The position numbers and the translations under genes are program-made. The notes under the pieces were generated by a model, which saw only the letters and a program-made list of their open reading frames with translations, made no database searches and had not been told where the DNA came from. Shown in pieces: positions 22,023-34,958 of a stretch of 64,000 nt of DNA. The DNA is from Planctomycetia bacterium (lineage in GTDB: Bacteria; Planctomycetota; Planctomycetia; Pirellulales; Thermoguttaceae), in contig JAUNMR010000002.1 in NCBI GenBank assembly GCA_030537455.1, positions 124,001 through 188,000 on the forward strand. Reading direction: 5' to 3'. Each line of letters begins with the position of its first letter. Position 1 is the stretch's first letter.

Positions 22023-24506
22023 TTAGTGTTCACGAATGATTACTAAGCGGTCAATAAAGACTTTCTGGACTTCCCCAGGGCGTTTCGGAGGCGCGAACCA
22101 AGCGTACTGAGAAGTGCGCAAGGGTAGAGATCCAAGGTCAATACAGACGTAGTCGCTACCGTTAATCTGCTCGACAGTCACAGAGCGATGAGTAACGCCT
22201 TTCTTCTCTTTTTCGTCGTAAACGCCGAGCGTCATTGCGGGACCGTCCTTTGCAGTCGCTTCGCAACGCACGTATGCATAGACATGATAGACGGGCTCTT
22301 CGTCGTTACGTTCGCCAGTCGGTTCCAGACTGTTTAAGAAAGAAGCGATCGACCATGCGGTCGCCCATTCAAAGTGATTGCCCGGCATCATGACAGCGCG
22401 CTTATTGGACGCGCTGGGGTCTTCTGCAAGGAAGGTCCAGTCATTGAATCGCGACTTCGTGAAATCATACTCTTGCAGGTCAATCCAAGATTTATTCGAG
22501 ATTCCTTCACATTCCTTGGGAACGGACGCTTCGGCGGTTTGGTAATCTTCATACCGCTGAATGAATTCTTCTTTGAATTGCTTGAATTGTTCTGGTGAAT
22601 CCGATTCGCGTGAACGCGTCAGACCGAATTTATCTAACTTACGCACAAAGGCACGCGCCGCTTCCAGTGGATCTTCCGGTCCAAGGAATTCAATGTCGCG
22701 CAGTTGGCATTCGAGTTTTGCGTGCCGATACTCTTGTAGCCAGACCAGATCGAGAGGAATCTGCTCACGACTCACCTTGTCACAGAGTCCCTTGTATTTT
22801 TCAGGATTCTCTTTTTCCAAACGTTCTGCTATTTCAGACGCCTGACGTTGCAAACGCGTGACATGAGAGAGCGTGTAAACGTCCATCCAGTCGCCGGCAG
22901 AGCGTCTATAGATCGAAAGATAGTAGTTCTTACTCACTACCGCTTCAATCAAGGCGTCGAAGTATTCACGGTAGATCGGGACGAGTTCAGGCGCGTAATA
23001 GCCTGCGACGAATTCGTCGCGTAGCGCTTTCGGGTCAAGACTAGGATCCCAAAGGAGCTTAGAGACAACCCAGTTACGAAGTTGGACAAAATCGCCCGTC
23101 TCGCACTGATAATCGCCCTGTTCAAAGAAGCCAATCACATTGTGATTGATGTAAAAATTAATGTTCGGCGCAAGAACGTGATAGTTCGGGAATGGAAGAA
23201 GATAGAGCGCGAAGTCGGTAGCATAATCCCAAACGAAGAGATTGTCTGCCAATTTACTCCAACCGACAAGGTCGTCGCGGAACGTACTATTGGCGTCGGA
23301 GTCAAGAGGCTGACCAAAGGAGCATTCGATTGAACAAAGACGAATAACGACATTATGACGCGGACGCAACGTCTTAGGCGGTTTACGCGTGTACTGGTAC
23401 GCAAGCGTTTCCACATATAAGTCGGGAAATTCGTCTTCTAACGCTTCTGCAACCTTGTTAACGCCACGCAGTAGAGAGGCGGCGTGCGAGCCTTCTTCTT
23501 CGTCAATTGCACGGCATTTTTCACATGTACAGTAGCCGTGCCAGTCGTTTTGGCTGATAGAAAGGAAAGAGGCGTTCGGATTTTTACGCAACGCTTCACG
23601 CGCATTTTTCGTAAGTTCCTCGAGCATTTCGTCATTTGAGAAACACAGTTGCGCTCCGGAAGCGTGAATTTGTTCCGGCTTTAATTGTTCAACCAGTTTG
23701 CGGTAAGTATCGCTAGAACCACTCCATCCGGGAACACCGACTTTTCTGACGCCGTCAATTTCCGAGAACCAGTCCGGGTGATCGAGGAAGTATTTCTCCG
23801 GGGGAATTAACGGGTAGGAGGAGTGGACGAAGTATTGGAAAACATGATGATCGCCGAACTCGGGGGGTATTGGCTCGCCGCTTCCATTACAACGCATACG
23901 CGCCGCAAAGGGACTCTTGCGCGCGTCACGGTAGTAGGATTCCCGATAGATCAGTTTCGGAGCGTAGTAGACGTTCAAATCATCCGCGATTGACAGTTCC
24001 GGCGTGTGCGGAATGGTCGATTCGGTTGAGGTCCACCATCGGCATCCGAGTTGAGATTCAAGGAATTCGTAAACGGCATAGAGGGCGCCACGTTTGACGG
24101 AGCCGCTCAAAACGACCGAAGAGCCAACGCTCTTGACAATTATACCGTCGTAACCGATTTCTGCTTCAGGCTTTTCGCCGAGTACGGCTTTGGTGAGCTC
24201 GCTCGGGCCAATGAGAAAAAAGCGACCTGAGGTAACGGTTTCACACAGATCAGAGCCTTCTATAGTTGTTTCTGAGACGATCGGCAGTTTAGCGTCGGAG
24301 ACTTCTTCAAAGAACGTCTGAAGCTCTTGTGCAGCGGCGCTTTGCATTGCGCTAGGCTCTGCGGGCACGACGATCACATAAGGGGATTGACCGCCGGAGG
24401 CAACGGTAATTTCGCCCGCGGAAACCGAGGACGTTACATAAAACGCAGTGGCGAGCAAGGCGACGCCAAGCGCTATGTTTGTAAGGTGGTATTTAAGGCA
24501 CGTCAT
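22023..24506 (-). CDS. Exported DUF4838 domain protein, alpha-glucuronidase-like N-terminus
   Basis: This protein of 827 residues starts with a signal peptide (about 1-31). A small N-terminal alpha/beta domain resembling the N-domain of GH67/GH20-type glycosidases follows (about 32-160, with SAAAQELQTFFEEVSDAKLP and a VYEFLESQLGCRWWT motif). DUF4838 then covers about 240-510, including LSISQNDWHGYCTCEKC and the histidine/cysteine-rich region. The rest forms a carbohydrate-binding-like beta sandwich. The domain is frequent in Bacteroidetes and Planctomycetes and is presumed to act on polysaccharides, but no activity is proven. The ATG at 24506 opens directly on the signal peptide; the ATG at 24551 would add 15 hydrophilic residues. 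It follows the S41 protease gene by 128 bases. Confidence 0.82.
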   Translation of the reverse strand: MTCLKYHLTNIALGVALLATAFYVTSSVSAGEITVASGGQSPYVIVVPAEPSAMQSAAAQELQTFFEEVSDAKLPIVSETTIEGSDLCETVTSGRFFLIGPSELTKAVLGEKPEAEIGYDGIIVKSVGSSVVLSGSVKRGALYAVYEFLESQLGCRWWTSTESTIPHTPELSIADDLNVYYAPKLIYRESYYRDARKSPFAARMRCNGSGEPIPPEFGDHHVFQYFVHSSYPLIPPEKYFLDHPDWFSEIDGVRKVGVPGWSGSSDTYRKLVEQLKPEQIHASGAQLCFSNDEMLEELTKNAREALRKNPNASFLSISQNDWHGYCTCEKCRAIDEEEGSHAASLLRGVNKVAEALEDEFPDLYVETLAYQYTRKPPKTLRPRHNVVIRLCSIECSFGQPLDSDANSTFRDDLVGWSKLADNLFVWDYATDFALYLLPFPNYHVLAPNINFYINHNVIGFFEQGDYQCETGDFVQLRNWVVSKLLWDPSLDPKALRDEFVAGYYAPELVPIYREYFDALIEAVVSKNYYLSIYRRSAGDWMDVYTLSHVTRLQRQASEIAERLEKENPEKYKGLCDKVSREQIPLDLVWLQEYRHAKLECQLRDIEFLGPEDPLEAARAFVRKLDKFGLTRSRESDSPEQFKQFKEEFIQRYEDYQTAEASVPKECEGISNKSWIDLQEYDFTKSRFNDWTFLAEDPSASNKRAVMMPGNHFEWATAWSIASFLNSLEPTGERNDEEPVYHVYAYVRCEATAKDGPAMTLGVYDEKEKKGVTHRSVTVEQINGSDYVCIDLGSLPLRTSQYAWFAPPKRPGEVQKVFIDRLVIIREH

Positions 24507-24634
24507 GGTTGAATCCGGTATGCTAGAGTTGAGATTATGTCGTTCTACCATAAGGCGGAACGACGTGCGAAAGAAGCGCGCTATGCGCAGGACGTCATCA
24601 AATGCGGTTCAATGAGAACTATGTCGGCGAAGAC

Positions 24635-30870: not shown

Positions 30871-33800
30871 TTAGTCGAGGTTTTCCCAATCCTCAAAAGA
30901 CCAGTGGCTCAGTTCGTCAAAGACCGCGTCTGAGACGTCGTTGTAGGCGTATTGTATGGTCTTCCATTCCGAACGCTCGCCCTGCGAGTCGCGTACGCGC
31001 AGACGGAATTCATAGAACTGTTCAGCGTCAATACCACGCGCTAAGTGTTCAGTGTTTTGAACAAAAGTAGCGTACGACCAGGTCGTTTGCCAGGACTGCC
31101 CTTGATCGTTTGAGCGTCGATATTGGATTTCGTATTGTTCTGCTTCCTCAATCGCACTCCATGTGAGCGTTAACTGGCGCAGTAGCGCGTCATAGTTGCC
31201 TGCTACGAAAGACTCAGGCGTTGCCAGTGTCGGCGTGTGTTCGTAAGTTAAATAGCTCCATTCGGAGCACGCGCCATTGGAGTTGACAGCGCGCAGACGG
31301 AACCCATAGAAGCTGTCTTCGTGGACGTAAACAGCGGTTCGGTGGGTAAGAGAGGTGACTTCTGCACGCGTCCATTCGTTGCGCCAGGTTACGCCGTGAT
31401 CGTCGCTACGTCGATACTGTACCTCATATTGAGTAGCATTATCGACTGCGTCCCATGACAGTTGTAACGTAAGGTTTTGGTAATCGTAATCGTAGGCGAT
31501 AAAGTTCAGGGGCGCGTCGAGTTCAACTTTTGATTCCAGAACGCCCTGAAGCGGCAATGAATAAGCGAGAGCGCCGACGTCGTCGTAAACGTAGGCGTAG
31601 ATTTGGTATTCATAGATCGACGTAGGCTCAATACCACGCGCCTGCCACGAAATTGTCGTGCCCGTGGAAATCGATACGTCCTCGGAAACTTCAATTGAAT
31701 CAGCGAGTTTCCAGTCTTGACCATCCACGCGATAATACACAAGGAATCCGTCTTCGTTATTTGAACTGTCAAGCCAACTTAATAGGACGGAACCGTCTTC
31801 CAGGTCGCCGAAGACCAGGTCGGTTGGCGTCGCGAGTGAAGTTGCCTGAACCGTTGACGTCGTCGTGGTCTCAACGGGCTCGTTGTTCACGGTAACGCGA
31901 ACTTTGAGGTAGCAGTTGACGTCGTCGCTCGTGGGCGTGTATTCCCACTCGTTGGCGTTAGTAATCTCCGTCTCTTCTTGGTTTGCGTTCACGCGCAACC
32001 ACTGTACAGTCACGCCGTCGACGTCTGCGAGCGACATGTTGTCCAACGTACCGGAGGCAGTAAGCGTTTTACCTACCAGGATGGGCTCGTCGAGTGTGAT
32101 CGTTAGGGTTGGCGTGGCGTCGGCGACCCCGTGAAAGGTTCCAACCAGGGGGGATGATTCCAACTCCACTCCGTCAGCGGAAAGCTTGTAAGAGCAAACC
32201 TTGAAGTCGTACACCTGACTAGGATCAAGACCATAAGCGGTTCGAGTGATCGTTGTTCCGGTCGACGCCGAAGTGGTAGCGTCGGAAGGAATGGAAGAGG
32301 CAAAGAGCCATTCGCCGCCGTTAATGCGATAATAGACTTTAAAGCCCAGTTCGTCTTGAGAACCGTCGACCCAACTCATTTGGAGACGACCATTTTTATA
32401 AACGCCGAAGGTCAAATTTGACGGCGCCGACGGACGCTCTTGGGAGTAACCGGCGATGAATTCAATCGTTTGTTCATCCGTAGTGTGAGCGATACATACG
32501 TCGGTGGCAAGGTCTTGACCGGTGAAAGTATATGCCGAGCCGTTGTCGACGTCCTGACCGTCACTGTGCCACTGATAACTCGTTGCAGAGGATTGCGATA
32601 CGTCAACTGTACCGGCAAAGCCCTGGGGTAAATAGACATAGCTGAGCGTTGTGGTCCAAGGCGCTAATGCGCTCAATGCTGTATTAACAGAGACGTCGAG
32701 CGTTTCGAGGTTATTGGAGTAGCAATTGAGCGTGGTCAGTTCCCAAGAATCGGATACGTCTAAGGATTGTAGCGCGTTGTTGGAAACGTCAAGATAAATG
32801 AGACTGAGGTTATTAGAAAGATCCAATTCGCCCAGGCTGTTCGATTGGCAATTCAACGATTCCAAACAGAACAGATTGGAGACGTCCAAAGTCTCAAGTT
32901 GATTGTTGGCAACGTTTACAATCGTAGTAGTAAACGATTGTAATTCGACTTGGTCGATTCGATTGTCGTTGACGACCACGCGCGTTAATTTAGAGCAATC
33001 AATCAAATCAAGGTCGCCAACCAGATCGTAGTTCGACCAGGAGATCTGCGTAACGCGATATTTACCGTCGAACTGGCTCCACGTAAGCCCTTTGAAATCT
33101 TCCAGAAAGTCGGGCGAATAGTCGTCGCCCGCTATTTTGACGCCATTCTTAACGCCGTTTTCATCGGTCAGCTCGAGGAATCGTTTAATGCAATTCCAAT
33201 CCTCAGTAGCGTAACCGTTTGGAACATAGTCGTTAGCGTTCGTCCAAACAGCAACATTAACTGCTCGCGACGGCTCCGTCTCTTCTATGTTTGAGCCGAT
33301 AGCGACTACGCGATAGAGCGTTTCGCCATTATAGGGGGAGTTATCTAACGCCTTAACAGTCCAACTGGTATTGGTTGTTGAAGAAACAACATTAGTCCAG
33401 CCGAGACGATTGGAACCGGCATTGACCAGTGCATAGATCCGGAAACGTGAGTCGTCGGATTCCCAGGAAATTGTGTCGCCATATTGGGCGCGGTACACGC
33501 CAATCTCAGAGTACGTACGAAGATTCGTTGCACGAACGCGATAATTATATTCATGACCGGCAGATACGGTCGAGTCGACAAAGGAATTATTGGAGACGTC
33601 AGTTGCAACGACCTGCCAGAGCGCTTCGCCGCTGCGCAGTTCCTCTGTGACGTCATAGCGTTCCACGGTATATGTGGCGTCGCTAGAAGTTTGCGACGCA
33701 GCTTCCCATGACAGAACAACGCTTTTACCAACAGTCGACGCGACAAGGTTTTCTGGCGCAGGGGAGCCGAATGTATCGGCATAATTATAGTCAACTTGGT

Positions 33801-34875
33801 AGCCGAGGTCTTCCAACACGCCAAGCGTCATCGAGGTAATTGTCACCTCAATATTCGTCGGAATAGCGTAACTCATTCCGTCGCGCTCATTTAGATAAAG
33901 GTAGTAGGAGGCGAGTATGAAGCTCGGGTGGGCGCCGTAGGATCCGGTAGCGGTATAGGTCTCCATTAAGAAGCTGTTTGGTTCGCTGTCTTGTGACGTA
34001 AAATACTCTGGGAAAGAGTTATAGTACTGTTGTACGCCCTTTTCGCCGTAATAGCGATAATAGGTCGAGCCGGATTCAAAGACGTCGTTGAGGTCGAATG
34101 GCGTCGTCGTTACCGTTTCAATCAGACCGGTAGTGTTGAAATGCGTAACGTTGTAGCCTAGAGCGTGGGCGATTTCATGAAGCGCGGTATTATAGAATAC
34201 GCGTTGAACCGTCGCGCTCGGATTAGAGACGAAATACTTCTCATTGAAGATCAATGAGCCAGTTGCCGCCAGTCCCGTGCCTCCGTCGCGGTAATATCCG
34301 TCGTTGAGTGCGGAACCGAGTGTTTTGGTTGTGGAGAATGAATCGCTGAAACCGAAGTAGAGAAAAAGATCGTCCACTTCGAGATCGGTTGAGCCGTCGA
34401 CCTCAAATGGGTACACAATATCTTCAGCTCCGACCGTGATAATCTCTTCCCATTTCGAGAGCGCCTGATTCCACAGTTCTATATAGACAGGGTCGGGAAC
34501 CTCGCAGTAATCGTAGTTGGAATAATACGAAATACCGTTTTGCCCCAGTACGCGAACATTGCCGCTTACTAGTGTTTCGTAATCGATATCAAACCCGATT
34601 TCTATGTTATCGGCGTCCTCATTGACGTCATTCGTAGAATCGGTTTGGGCATTTGAAGCGTCGTCAATTGTATCCAGCGCGATAGGTTGGGAGACGTTTA
34701 TGTTCTCACTGGCGACGGCGACCGGGACACAGGAGTAACGCGTTAGGATTGTGTCTGCAAAGGAAACAGGCGTGACGCTTAATAGTAGTCGATCTTCTAA
34801 CGTCTCTAACGACATGCGTTTTAGAGAACGTTGGTTTTTCTGTTCACGAGCAAATAGGGGGAGGGAAATACGCAT
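30871..34875 (-). CDS. Giant exported LEDRLLLS protein: zinc metallopeptidase, LRR and Fn3 segments
   Basis: This protein of 1334 residues has the planctomycete N-terminal motif LEDRLLLS at residues 26-33. A metallopeptidase-like region (about 90-370) follows, with the zinc motif HEIAHALGYN (His233, Glu234, His237) and a further His at 245. This motif resembles metzincin or leishmanolysin-like enzymes, but the third ligand is not at the classic HExxHxxGxxH distance. Fibronectin type III-like segments come next, with a block of bacterial leucine-rich repeats (about 590-740; LETLDVSNLF, NALQSLDVSDS, NNLETLDVSVN). Several more Fn3-like domains run to the end (FYEFRLRVRDSQGERSEW). No dockerin or membrane anchor was seen. 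It is probably secreted or cell-surface. Peptidase activity is inference. A TTG at 34905 is the only alternative start. Confidence 0.8.
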   Translation of the reverse strand: MRISLPLFAREQKNQRSLKRMSLETLEDRLLLSVTPVSFADTILTRYSCVPVAVASENINVSQPIALDTIDDASNAQTDSTNDVNEDADNIEIGFDIDYETLVSGNVRVLGQNGISYYSNYDYCEVPDPVYIELWNQALSKWEEIITVGAEDIVYPFEVDGSTDLEVDDLFLYFGFSDSFSTTKTLGSALNDGYYRDGGTGLAATGSLIFNEKYFVSNPSATVQRVFYNTALHEIAHALGYNVTHFNTTGLIETVTTTPFDLNDVFESGSTYYRYYGEKGVQQYYNSFPEYFTSQDSEPNSFLMETYTATGSYGAHPSFILASYYLYLNERDGMSYAIPTNIEVTITSMTLGVLEDLGYQVDYNYADTFGSPAPENLVASTVGKSVVLSWEAASQTSSDATYTVERYDVTEELRSGEALWQVVATDVSNNSFVDSTVSAGHEYNYRVRATNLRTYSEIGVYRAQYGDTISWESDDSRFRIYALVNAGSNRLGWTNVVSSTTNTSWTVKALDNSPYNGETLYRVVAIGSNIEETEPSRAVNVAVWTNANDYVPNGYATEDWNCIKRFLELTDENGVKNGVKIAGDDYSPDFLEDFKGLTWSQFDGKYRVTQISWSNYDLVGDLDLIDCSKLTRVVVNDNRIDQVELQSFTTTIVNVANNQLETLDVSNLFCLESLNCQSNSLGELDLSNNLSLIYLDVSNNALQSLDVSDSWELTTLNCYSNNLETLDVSVNTALSALAPWTTTLSYVYLPQGFAGTVDVSQSSATSYQWHSDGQDVDNGSAYTFTGQDLATDVCIAHTTDEQTIEFIAGYSQERPSAPSNLTFGVYKNGRLQMSWVDGSQDELGFKVYYRINGGEWLFASSIPSDATTSASTGTTITRTAYGLDPSQVYDFKVCSYKLSADGVELESSPLVGTFHGVADATPTLTITLDEPILVGKTLTASGTLDNMSLADVDGVTVQWLRVNANQEETEITNANEWEYTPTSDDVNCYLKVRVTVNNEPVETTTTSTVQATSLATPTDLVFGDLEDGSVLLSWLDSSNNEDGFLVYYRVDGQDWKLADSIEVSEDVSISTGTTISWQARGIEPTSIYEYQIYAYVYDDVGALAYSLPLQGVLESKVELDAPLNFIAYDYDYQNLTLQLSWDAVDNATQYEVQYRRSDDHGVTWRNEWTRAEVTSLTHRTAVYVHEDSFYGFRLRAVNSNGACSEWSYLTYEHTPTLATPESFVAGNYDALLRQLTLTWSAIEEAEQYEIQYRRSNDQGQSWQTTWSYATFVQNTEHLARGIDAEQFYEFRLRVRDSQGERSEWKTIQYAYNDVSDAVFDELSHWSFEDWENLD

Positions 34876-34958
34876 CGGAGCGACTTTCTGGGGGAGAAGG
34901 GGCAACGCTAGAAACTGAACGGTTTCCGAGCAATGATTTAGGTCACGGCTTTGCGTTA

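Follow-up and report, generated by a model that had tools for sequence, protein, structure and literature searches.

Leishmanolysin has a cysteine-rich disulfide framework, holds 66 residues between its second and third zinc-binding histidines, and ends in a cysteine-rich C-terminal part with a GPI anchor. According to PMC8567305, which cites Studholme et al. 2004 on this point, the N-terminal consensus RRLxxExLExRxLLA of planctomycete surface proteins is a known putative signal for export, and the LExR proteins that carry it are likely surface proteins. Both descriptions bear on one gene in the 64,000-nucleotide stretch of planctomycete DNA analysed here, referred to as the window. The most probable reading of its product, to which we assign a probability of about 0.78, is a divergent bacterial zinc endopeptidase of the M8 metzincin type, forming part of a large exported, surface-associated protein, in which zinc would be bound through His233, His237 and His316 and additional modules would serve as anchors.

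The gene is an open frame of 1334 codons on the minus strand (30871..34875), running from an ATG at 34875 to a stop at 30871. Residues of the 1334-residue product are counted from this ATG, as they were in the sequence-only reading, which named no strand; an in-frame TTG upstream, at 34905, is another possible start. Orthologs are present in 17 genomes of the same genus, and therefore the frame is not a chance one. The features of the protein, all on the minus strand, are given here in order. Residues 16-33 (34777..34830) form the LExR-type planctomycete N-terminal motif, a putative export signal ending in LETLEDRLLLS, which was recognised by model NF012209 and by a profile from the bacterium's own genome. 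The LEDRLLLS string pointed out in the sequence-only reading is indeed there, at residues 26-33. An acidic linker leads to the leishmanolysin-type (M8) metallopeptidase domain, at about residues 90-369 (33769..34608), which is supported by Pfam, profile and fold matches. Two Fn3-like domains at about 370-545 (33241..33768), delimited by Pfam, the alignment of relatives and the predicted model, belong to the conserved core. They are followed by a helical cap and a block of leucine-rich repeats (LRRs) at about 546-760 (32596..33240; NCBIfam match and AlphaFold model), a C-terminal array of Ig/Fn3-like domains at about 761-1311 (30943..32595; Pfam, model and Foldseek), and an acidic C-terminal tail at 1313-1334 (30874..30939), a variant of a tail common to several LExR proteins of the genus. 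The domain borders are approximate, having been taken from Pfam matches and from the secondary structure in two AlphaFold models. The peptidase, LRR and Fn3 parts had all been noticed from the sequence, in that order; the parts are present, and the order needs correction, as two Fn3-like domains precede the LRR block.

The modules beyond the peptidase were recognised with varying strength. In the Pfam scan of the window protein, fn3 matched five stretches (E 1.5e-17) and IG_AIR9, an Ig-like domain, reached 29.1 bits at a cut-off of 27.5, and LRR_4 scored 18.7 bits, below its cut-off of 27. The NCBIfam internalin J model NF033187 matched residues 616-752 with an E-value of 5e-12 and 44.9 bits, against a whole-protein cut-off of 1700, and the LRR strands of the AlphaFold model are spaced 20-21 residues apart. 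The model of the C-terminal part has a mean pLDDT of 80.4 and a pTM of 0.47, and therefore its single domains can be trusted and their arrangement cannot. A Foldseek search with this model returned many Fn3 and Ig chains at query TM values of 0.09-0.18, which are so low that they indicate a common fold type only.

The assignment of the peptidase domain to M8 is based on profile and structure comparisons. Searched by itself against PDB sequences, alignment A1 (from which L027, L032 and the fragment L034 were excluded out of 18 matches outside the own genome) gave a single weak matrix metalloprotease (MMP) match (E 0.76), so that the wider alignment A2 was required. The A2 profile placed leishmanolysin (1lml) at the top with an E-value of 8.4e-18, aligning both the distal-His block (G..G.H) and the ELM block of the Met-turn, with MMPs next at 3.6e-6. 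The AlphaFold model of the domain from A2 is confident (pLDDT 87.2, pTM 0.88), except for model residues 232-239, directly past His316, where pLDDT falls below 50. Foldseek matched the model to 1lml (E 2.3e-9) and to no other structure with an E-value below 0.001. The VIA-align superposition on 1lml gave a Z-score of 20.9 over 246 residues at 3.3 Å; the next structures shown, MMPs and the MMP-like karilysin, had Z-scores of at most 9.5. Pfam Peptidase_M8 (PF01457, cut-off 21) scored 22.8 bits with the window protein and 27.4 with the domain alone, matching only about 50 residues. It matched all 16 genus members searched at E-values of at most 1, and among nine full-length relatives it scored 15.7-19.8 bits or was unlisted. 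None of the nine reached the Pfam cut-off, and therefore the family is divergent.

The sequence-only reading had proposed structure prediction of this domain and a comparison with families M8, M10 and M43. The predicted structure has the leishmanolysin fold, and the comparison favours M8, for which HExxHxxG with a distal His, the Met-turn, the fold and the above-cut-off PF01457 score all speak. The HExxHxxGxxH pattern of M10 and MMPs, with the third His ten residues past the first, does not occur, because position 243 is Leu, Val or Ile in 18 of 18 close rows of the alignment; likewise, the ligand at 243 expected of M43 (pappalysin) is missing. The M43 model PF05572 was weakly matched by 8 of 16 members (best E-value 0.0035) and was unlisted for the window domain. 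The domain has one Cys and thus does not possess the cysteine-rich framework of eukaryotic leishmanolysin proper; for this reason we file it as a bacterial M8-like subfamily and not as leishmanolysin itself. Many bacterial M8-like rows also have no Cys at all. By its homology and predicted fold, the window protein is classed as a modular protein of surface type that carries a divergent bacterial protease of the M8 type.

The one Cys in question, C124 (34504-34506), is unpaired, stands in a YCxVPD context and is shared by 16 of the 17 close rows covering that position. We considered an MMP-like cysteine switch at C124 and rejected it, since the residue is absent from nearly all distant M8 relatives, is replaced by Ser in L057 and lies at the end of a strand of the predicted catalytic fold. 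No inhibitory propeptide was recognised in the protein.

The zinc site was judged from an alignment of 44 rows, comprising 18 close rows (the window protein and 17 relatives) and 26 distant ones. Of 45 loci, L086 and L088 were excluded from it because they have no HExxH within 250 residues of the match. The only HExxH of the protein is H233-E-I-A-H237 (34165..34179), which is followed by ALGYN and would provide the first two zinc-binding His residues and the catalytic Glu. His233, Glu234, His237, Gly240 and His316 (33928..33930) are invariant in 44 of 44 rows, and column 316 is also invariant in the separate 41-row alignment A2, which additionally excludes L069, L078 and L083. His316 lies 79 residues past His237. 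Position 334 (33874..33876), that of the Met-turn, is Met in all 18 close rows and in 19 of the 26 distant ones, the remaining seven having Leu. A typical distant row reads HEMGHVLGFGTLW ... G..GHW.E ... ELMTG ... EDLGY. The second and third His are 76-82 residues apart within the genus, as against 39-69 in the distant rows, so that the genus has a longer insert.

From the sequence it had been noted that HEIAHALGYN is accompanied by a His at 245 (34141..34143), twelve residues past the first His of the motif, and that the metal site might be either leishmanolysin-like or atypical. The motif and the spacing are as described. An atypical metzincin using His245 as third ligand, through a long HExxHxxGxxxxH spacing, could draw on the presence of this residue in 7 of the 18 close rows; the other 11 close rows have Thr, Arg or Tyr in the column, His occurs there in none of the 26 distant rows, and the block around the invariant His316 aligns with the distal-His block of leishmanolysin. 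We consider the His245 arrangement extremely improbable, and on column conservation we rejected His245 as a ligand. Since His245 varies and His316 does not, the HExxHxxGxxxxH spacing is most likely coincidental, and His316 is most likely the leishmanolysin-type distal His that completes the site. Homology thus settles the question in favour of a predicted divergent M8-type metzincin site and not an atypical one, so that the leishmanolysin-like half of the original suggestion was the apt one.

Based on homology and fold, a mechanism can be proposed. Zinc would be held by His233, His237 and His316, with Glu234 activating the water molecule and Met334 forming the Met-turn. The N-terminal LExR motif would direct export. 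The LRR and Ig/Fn3 modules, perhaps together with the acidic tail, may bind and tether the enzyme to the cell, its substrate or a gut surface, and binding is a plausible role for the LRR and Fn3 domains. We speculate that proteins are cleaved there, most likely to supply peptides or to remodel the surface, and that the substrate is a gut protein derived from feed, microbes or the host. The domain could instead be a proteolytically inactive relative of the fold, kept as a binding or structural part of an adhesin, given that it is divergent and is flanked by domains of binding type. However, none of the putative catalytic and metal-binding residues changes across the 18 close rows, even though identity falls to about 48%. 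Such conservation is unusual in an inactive enzyme, and we regard loss of activity as improbable.

NF012209 matched the N-terminus of the window protein with 18.9 bits in one search, above its cut-off of 17, and with 13.3 bits, below it, in another; the sequence conforms to the RRLxxExLExRxLL consensus of LExR/LEPR-XLL surface proteins, although the score was sub-cut-off in that one scan. The own-genome LExR profile recognised the window N-terminus with an E-value of 2e-9 and gave 28 matches in the own genome at E-values of at most 10. Among the proteins matched by this profile, an acidic C-terminal end recurs, with the consensus [AS]x[LIV]LDExFxxL..DD; several LExR proteins among the window gene (30874-30939) and the loci L102-L105, L150-L165 and L196-L209 share it. 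Some LExR proteins of the own genome are giants: among those fetched, L102, L152, L157 and L159 have about 2900 to 5300 residues, and related genomes encode similarly long ones (L202-L204).

A tail profile built from 12 ends was searched in 19 genomes. It gave 23 checked matches outside the own genome, 18 of them within 15 residues of the stop codon (two of these were already in the profile and three are in frames of 24-50 codons) and five further away. Six tail-bearing frames from other genomes have at least 450 codons and their 5' end on the contig; LExR was found in five (L202, L203, L204, L208 and L209), and the sixth, L206, has the tail with no recognised LExR. A tail model trained solely on other genomes was applied to the own genome, where it ranked 18 LExR ends against 213 control ends, the controls including non-gene frames. 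LExR ends took its first four places, with the window protein in fourth, and made up seven of its top eight rows; 10 of the 18 LExR ends scored no better than controls. The acidic tail is probably a feature that several LExR proteins of this genus share. Of 61 family genomes, 3 had a match, two of which belong to this genus, and the tail looks restricted to it; one genome of the same genus, G017, has no tail match at an E-value of 0.01. The tail is absent from the libraries searched, and no description of it appeared in the partial texts returned by a few word-based paper searches, which constitute weak evidence. Its position leads us to guess that it is a sorting or anchoring signal. We tentatively propose, as a possibility short of an even chance, that the LExR motif and this novel acidic helix tail make up a sorting or anchoring system that would hold large surface proteins, the M8 protease included. 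The tail thus offers a candidate mechanism, open to testing, for the retention of LExR surface proteins in planctomycetes.

Two further peptidase genes adjoin the protease gene. Zn_peptidase_2 (PF04298; 34959..35627, minus strand) lies directly upstream and adjoins the ortholog in 9 of 17 loci, upstream DNA being present in 16. A C25 peptidase (PF01364; 28465..30741, plus strand), the sole C25 match in the own genome, is near the ortholog in 4 of 17. These neighbours, along with the surface-type export motif, would suit a true M8 protease that acts mainly on the cell's own surface proteins, in adhesin maturation or shedding, and not on dietary or host proteins. Neither neighbour is a fixed partner of the ortholog, however, and we consider this specialisation rather unlikely. 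Another secretion system uses a C25 enzyme to process C-terminal signals, and the gingipain-type C25 gene, convergent to the protease gene, is a candidate link to the tail. A DUF4838 protein with a GH67-N-like part, of carbohydrate-enzyme type, is also encoded nearby (22023-24551, minus strand).

The part of the protein beyond the core differs among relatives. In eleven of the 17 close relatives the alignment with the window protein extends into or through the LRR block; in the other six (L052-L056 and L058) it stops at about residue 541, and different sequence follows. Judged by these alignments, LExR, M8 and the two Fn3-like domains constitute the conserved unit, beyond which the chain is exchanged. 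L052 and the window gene share their gene neighbourhood, and the C-terminal exchange there therefore left the gene in place. A peptidase-domain tree of 22 rows was mostly unresolved, too much so for the exchanges to be counted; LRR presence takes three changes on it and is still compatible with a single origin. The six distant M8 proteins that were scanned have PPC, Calx-beta, RTX or W_rich modules, and none has LRRs. The combination of domains in one chain had been called unusual. This applies to the LRRs and not to modules in general, because fusion of M8 to varied, changeable modules is, by these domain matches, common among the distant proteins scanned. No description of the present combination was found in the partial texts that a few word-based searches returned, again weak evidence.

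The peptidase domain found a match in 17 of the 19 same-genus genomes, against none in 40 others of the family or order (60 genomes including the own one); the identity was 48-64%. The 17 close loci of the named genome collection come from Thermoguttaceae or other planctomycete genomes. The titles of eight name a gut site (omasum, rumen, caecum, colon or rectum) in goat, water buffalo or water deer. A further four denote RUG isolates, which are rumen genomes, and the title of L058 gives no sample kind. Among 294 genomes from the phylum, 11 had a Pfam M8 match, compared with 0 of 14 controls. A viral origin was considered and rejected, as viral_contigs contained no relative. The family extends M8 by a divergent bacterial subfamily of gut-associated planctomycetes whose far region is exchangeable.

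The window protein can be compared with four known systems. It shares with class 1 LRR proteins of the internalin J type (NF033187) repeats of about 21 residues, and the repeat unit alone is common to both. With the LExR, LEPR-XLL and Planc_extracel (PF07595) surface proteins of planctomycetes it shares the N-terminal consensus and the large multidomain build; it differs in being sub-threshold in some library searches and in the acidic tail that several such proteins of this genus possess. The bacterial M8-like proteins of Planctomycetota, Rhodobacteraceae, Flagellimonas and others (L067-L094) have the same HExxHxxG, invariant distal His, ELM- or ELL-type Met-turn and E-D-x-G-Y block, whereas they are only 20-28% identical to the window domain in A2 and have a shorter spacing between the second and third His. 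Leishmanolysin (1lml) has in common with the window protein the metzincin fold, HExxHxxG, the distal His in a G..G.H block and the Met-turn. In contrast to leishmanolysin, the window protein is bacterial, has a single Cys in the domain and a longer His-His insert of 79 residues, begins with an LExR N-terminus, and carries an LRR/Fn3 array in place of the cysteine-rich C-terminal part and GPI anchor.
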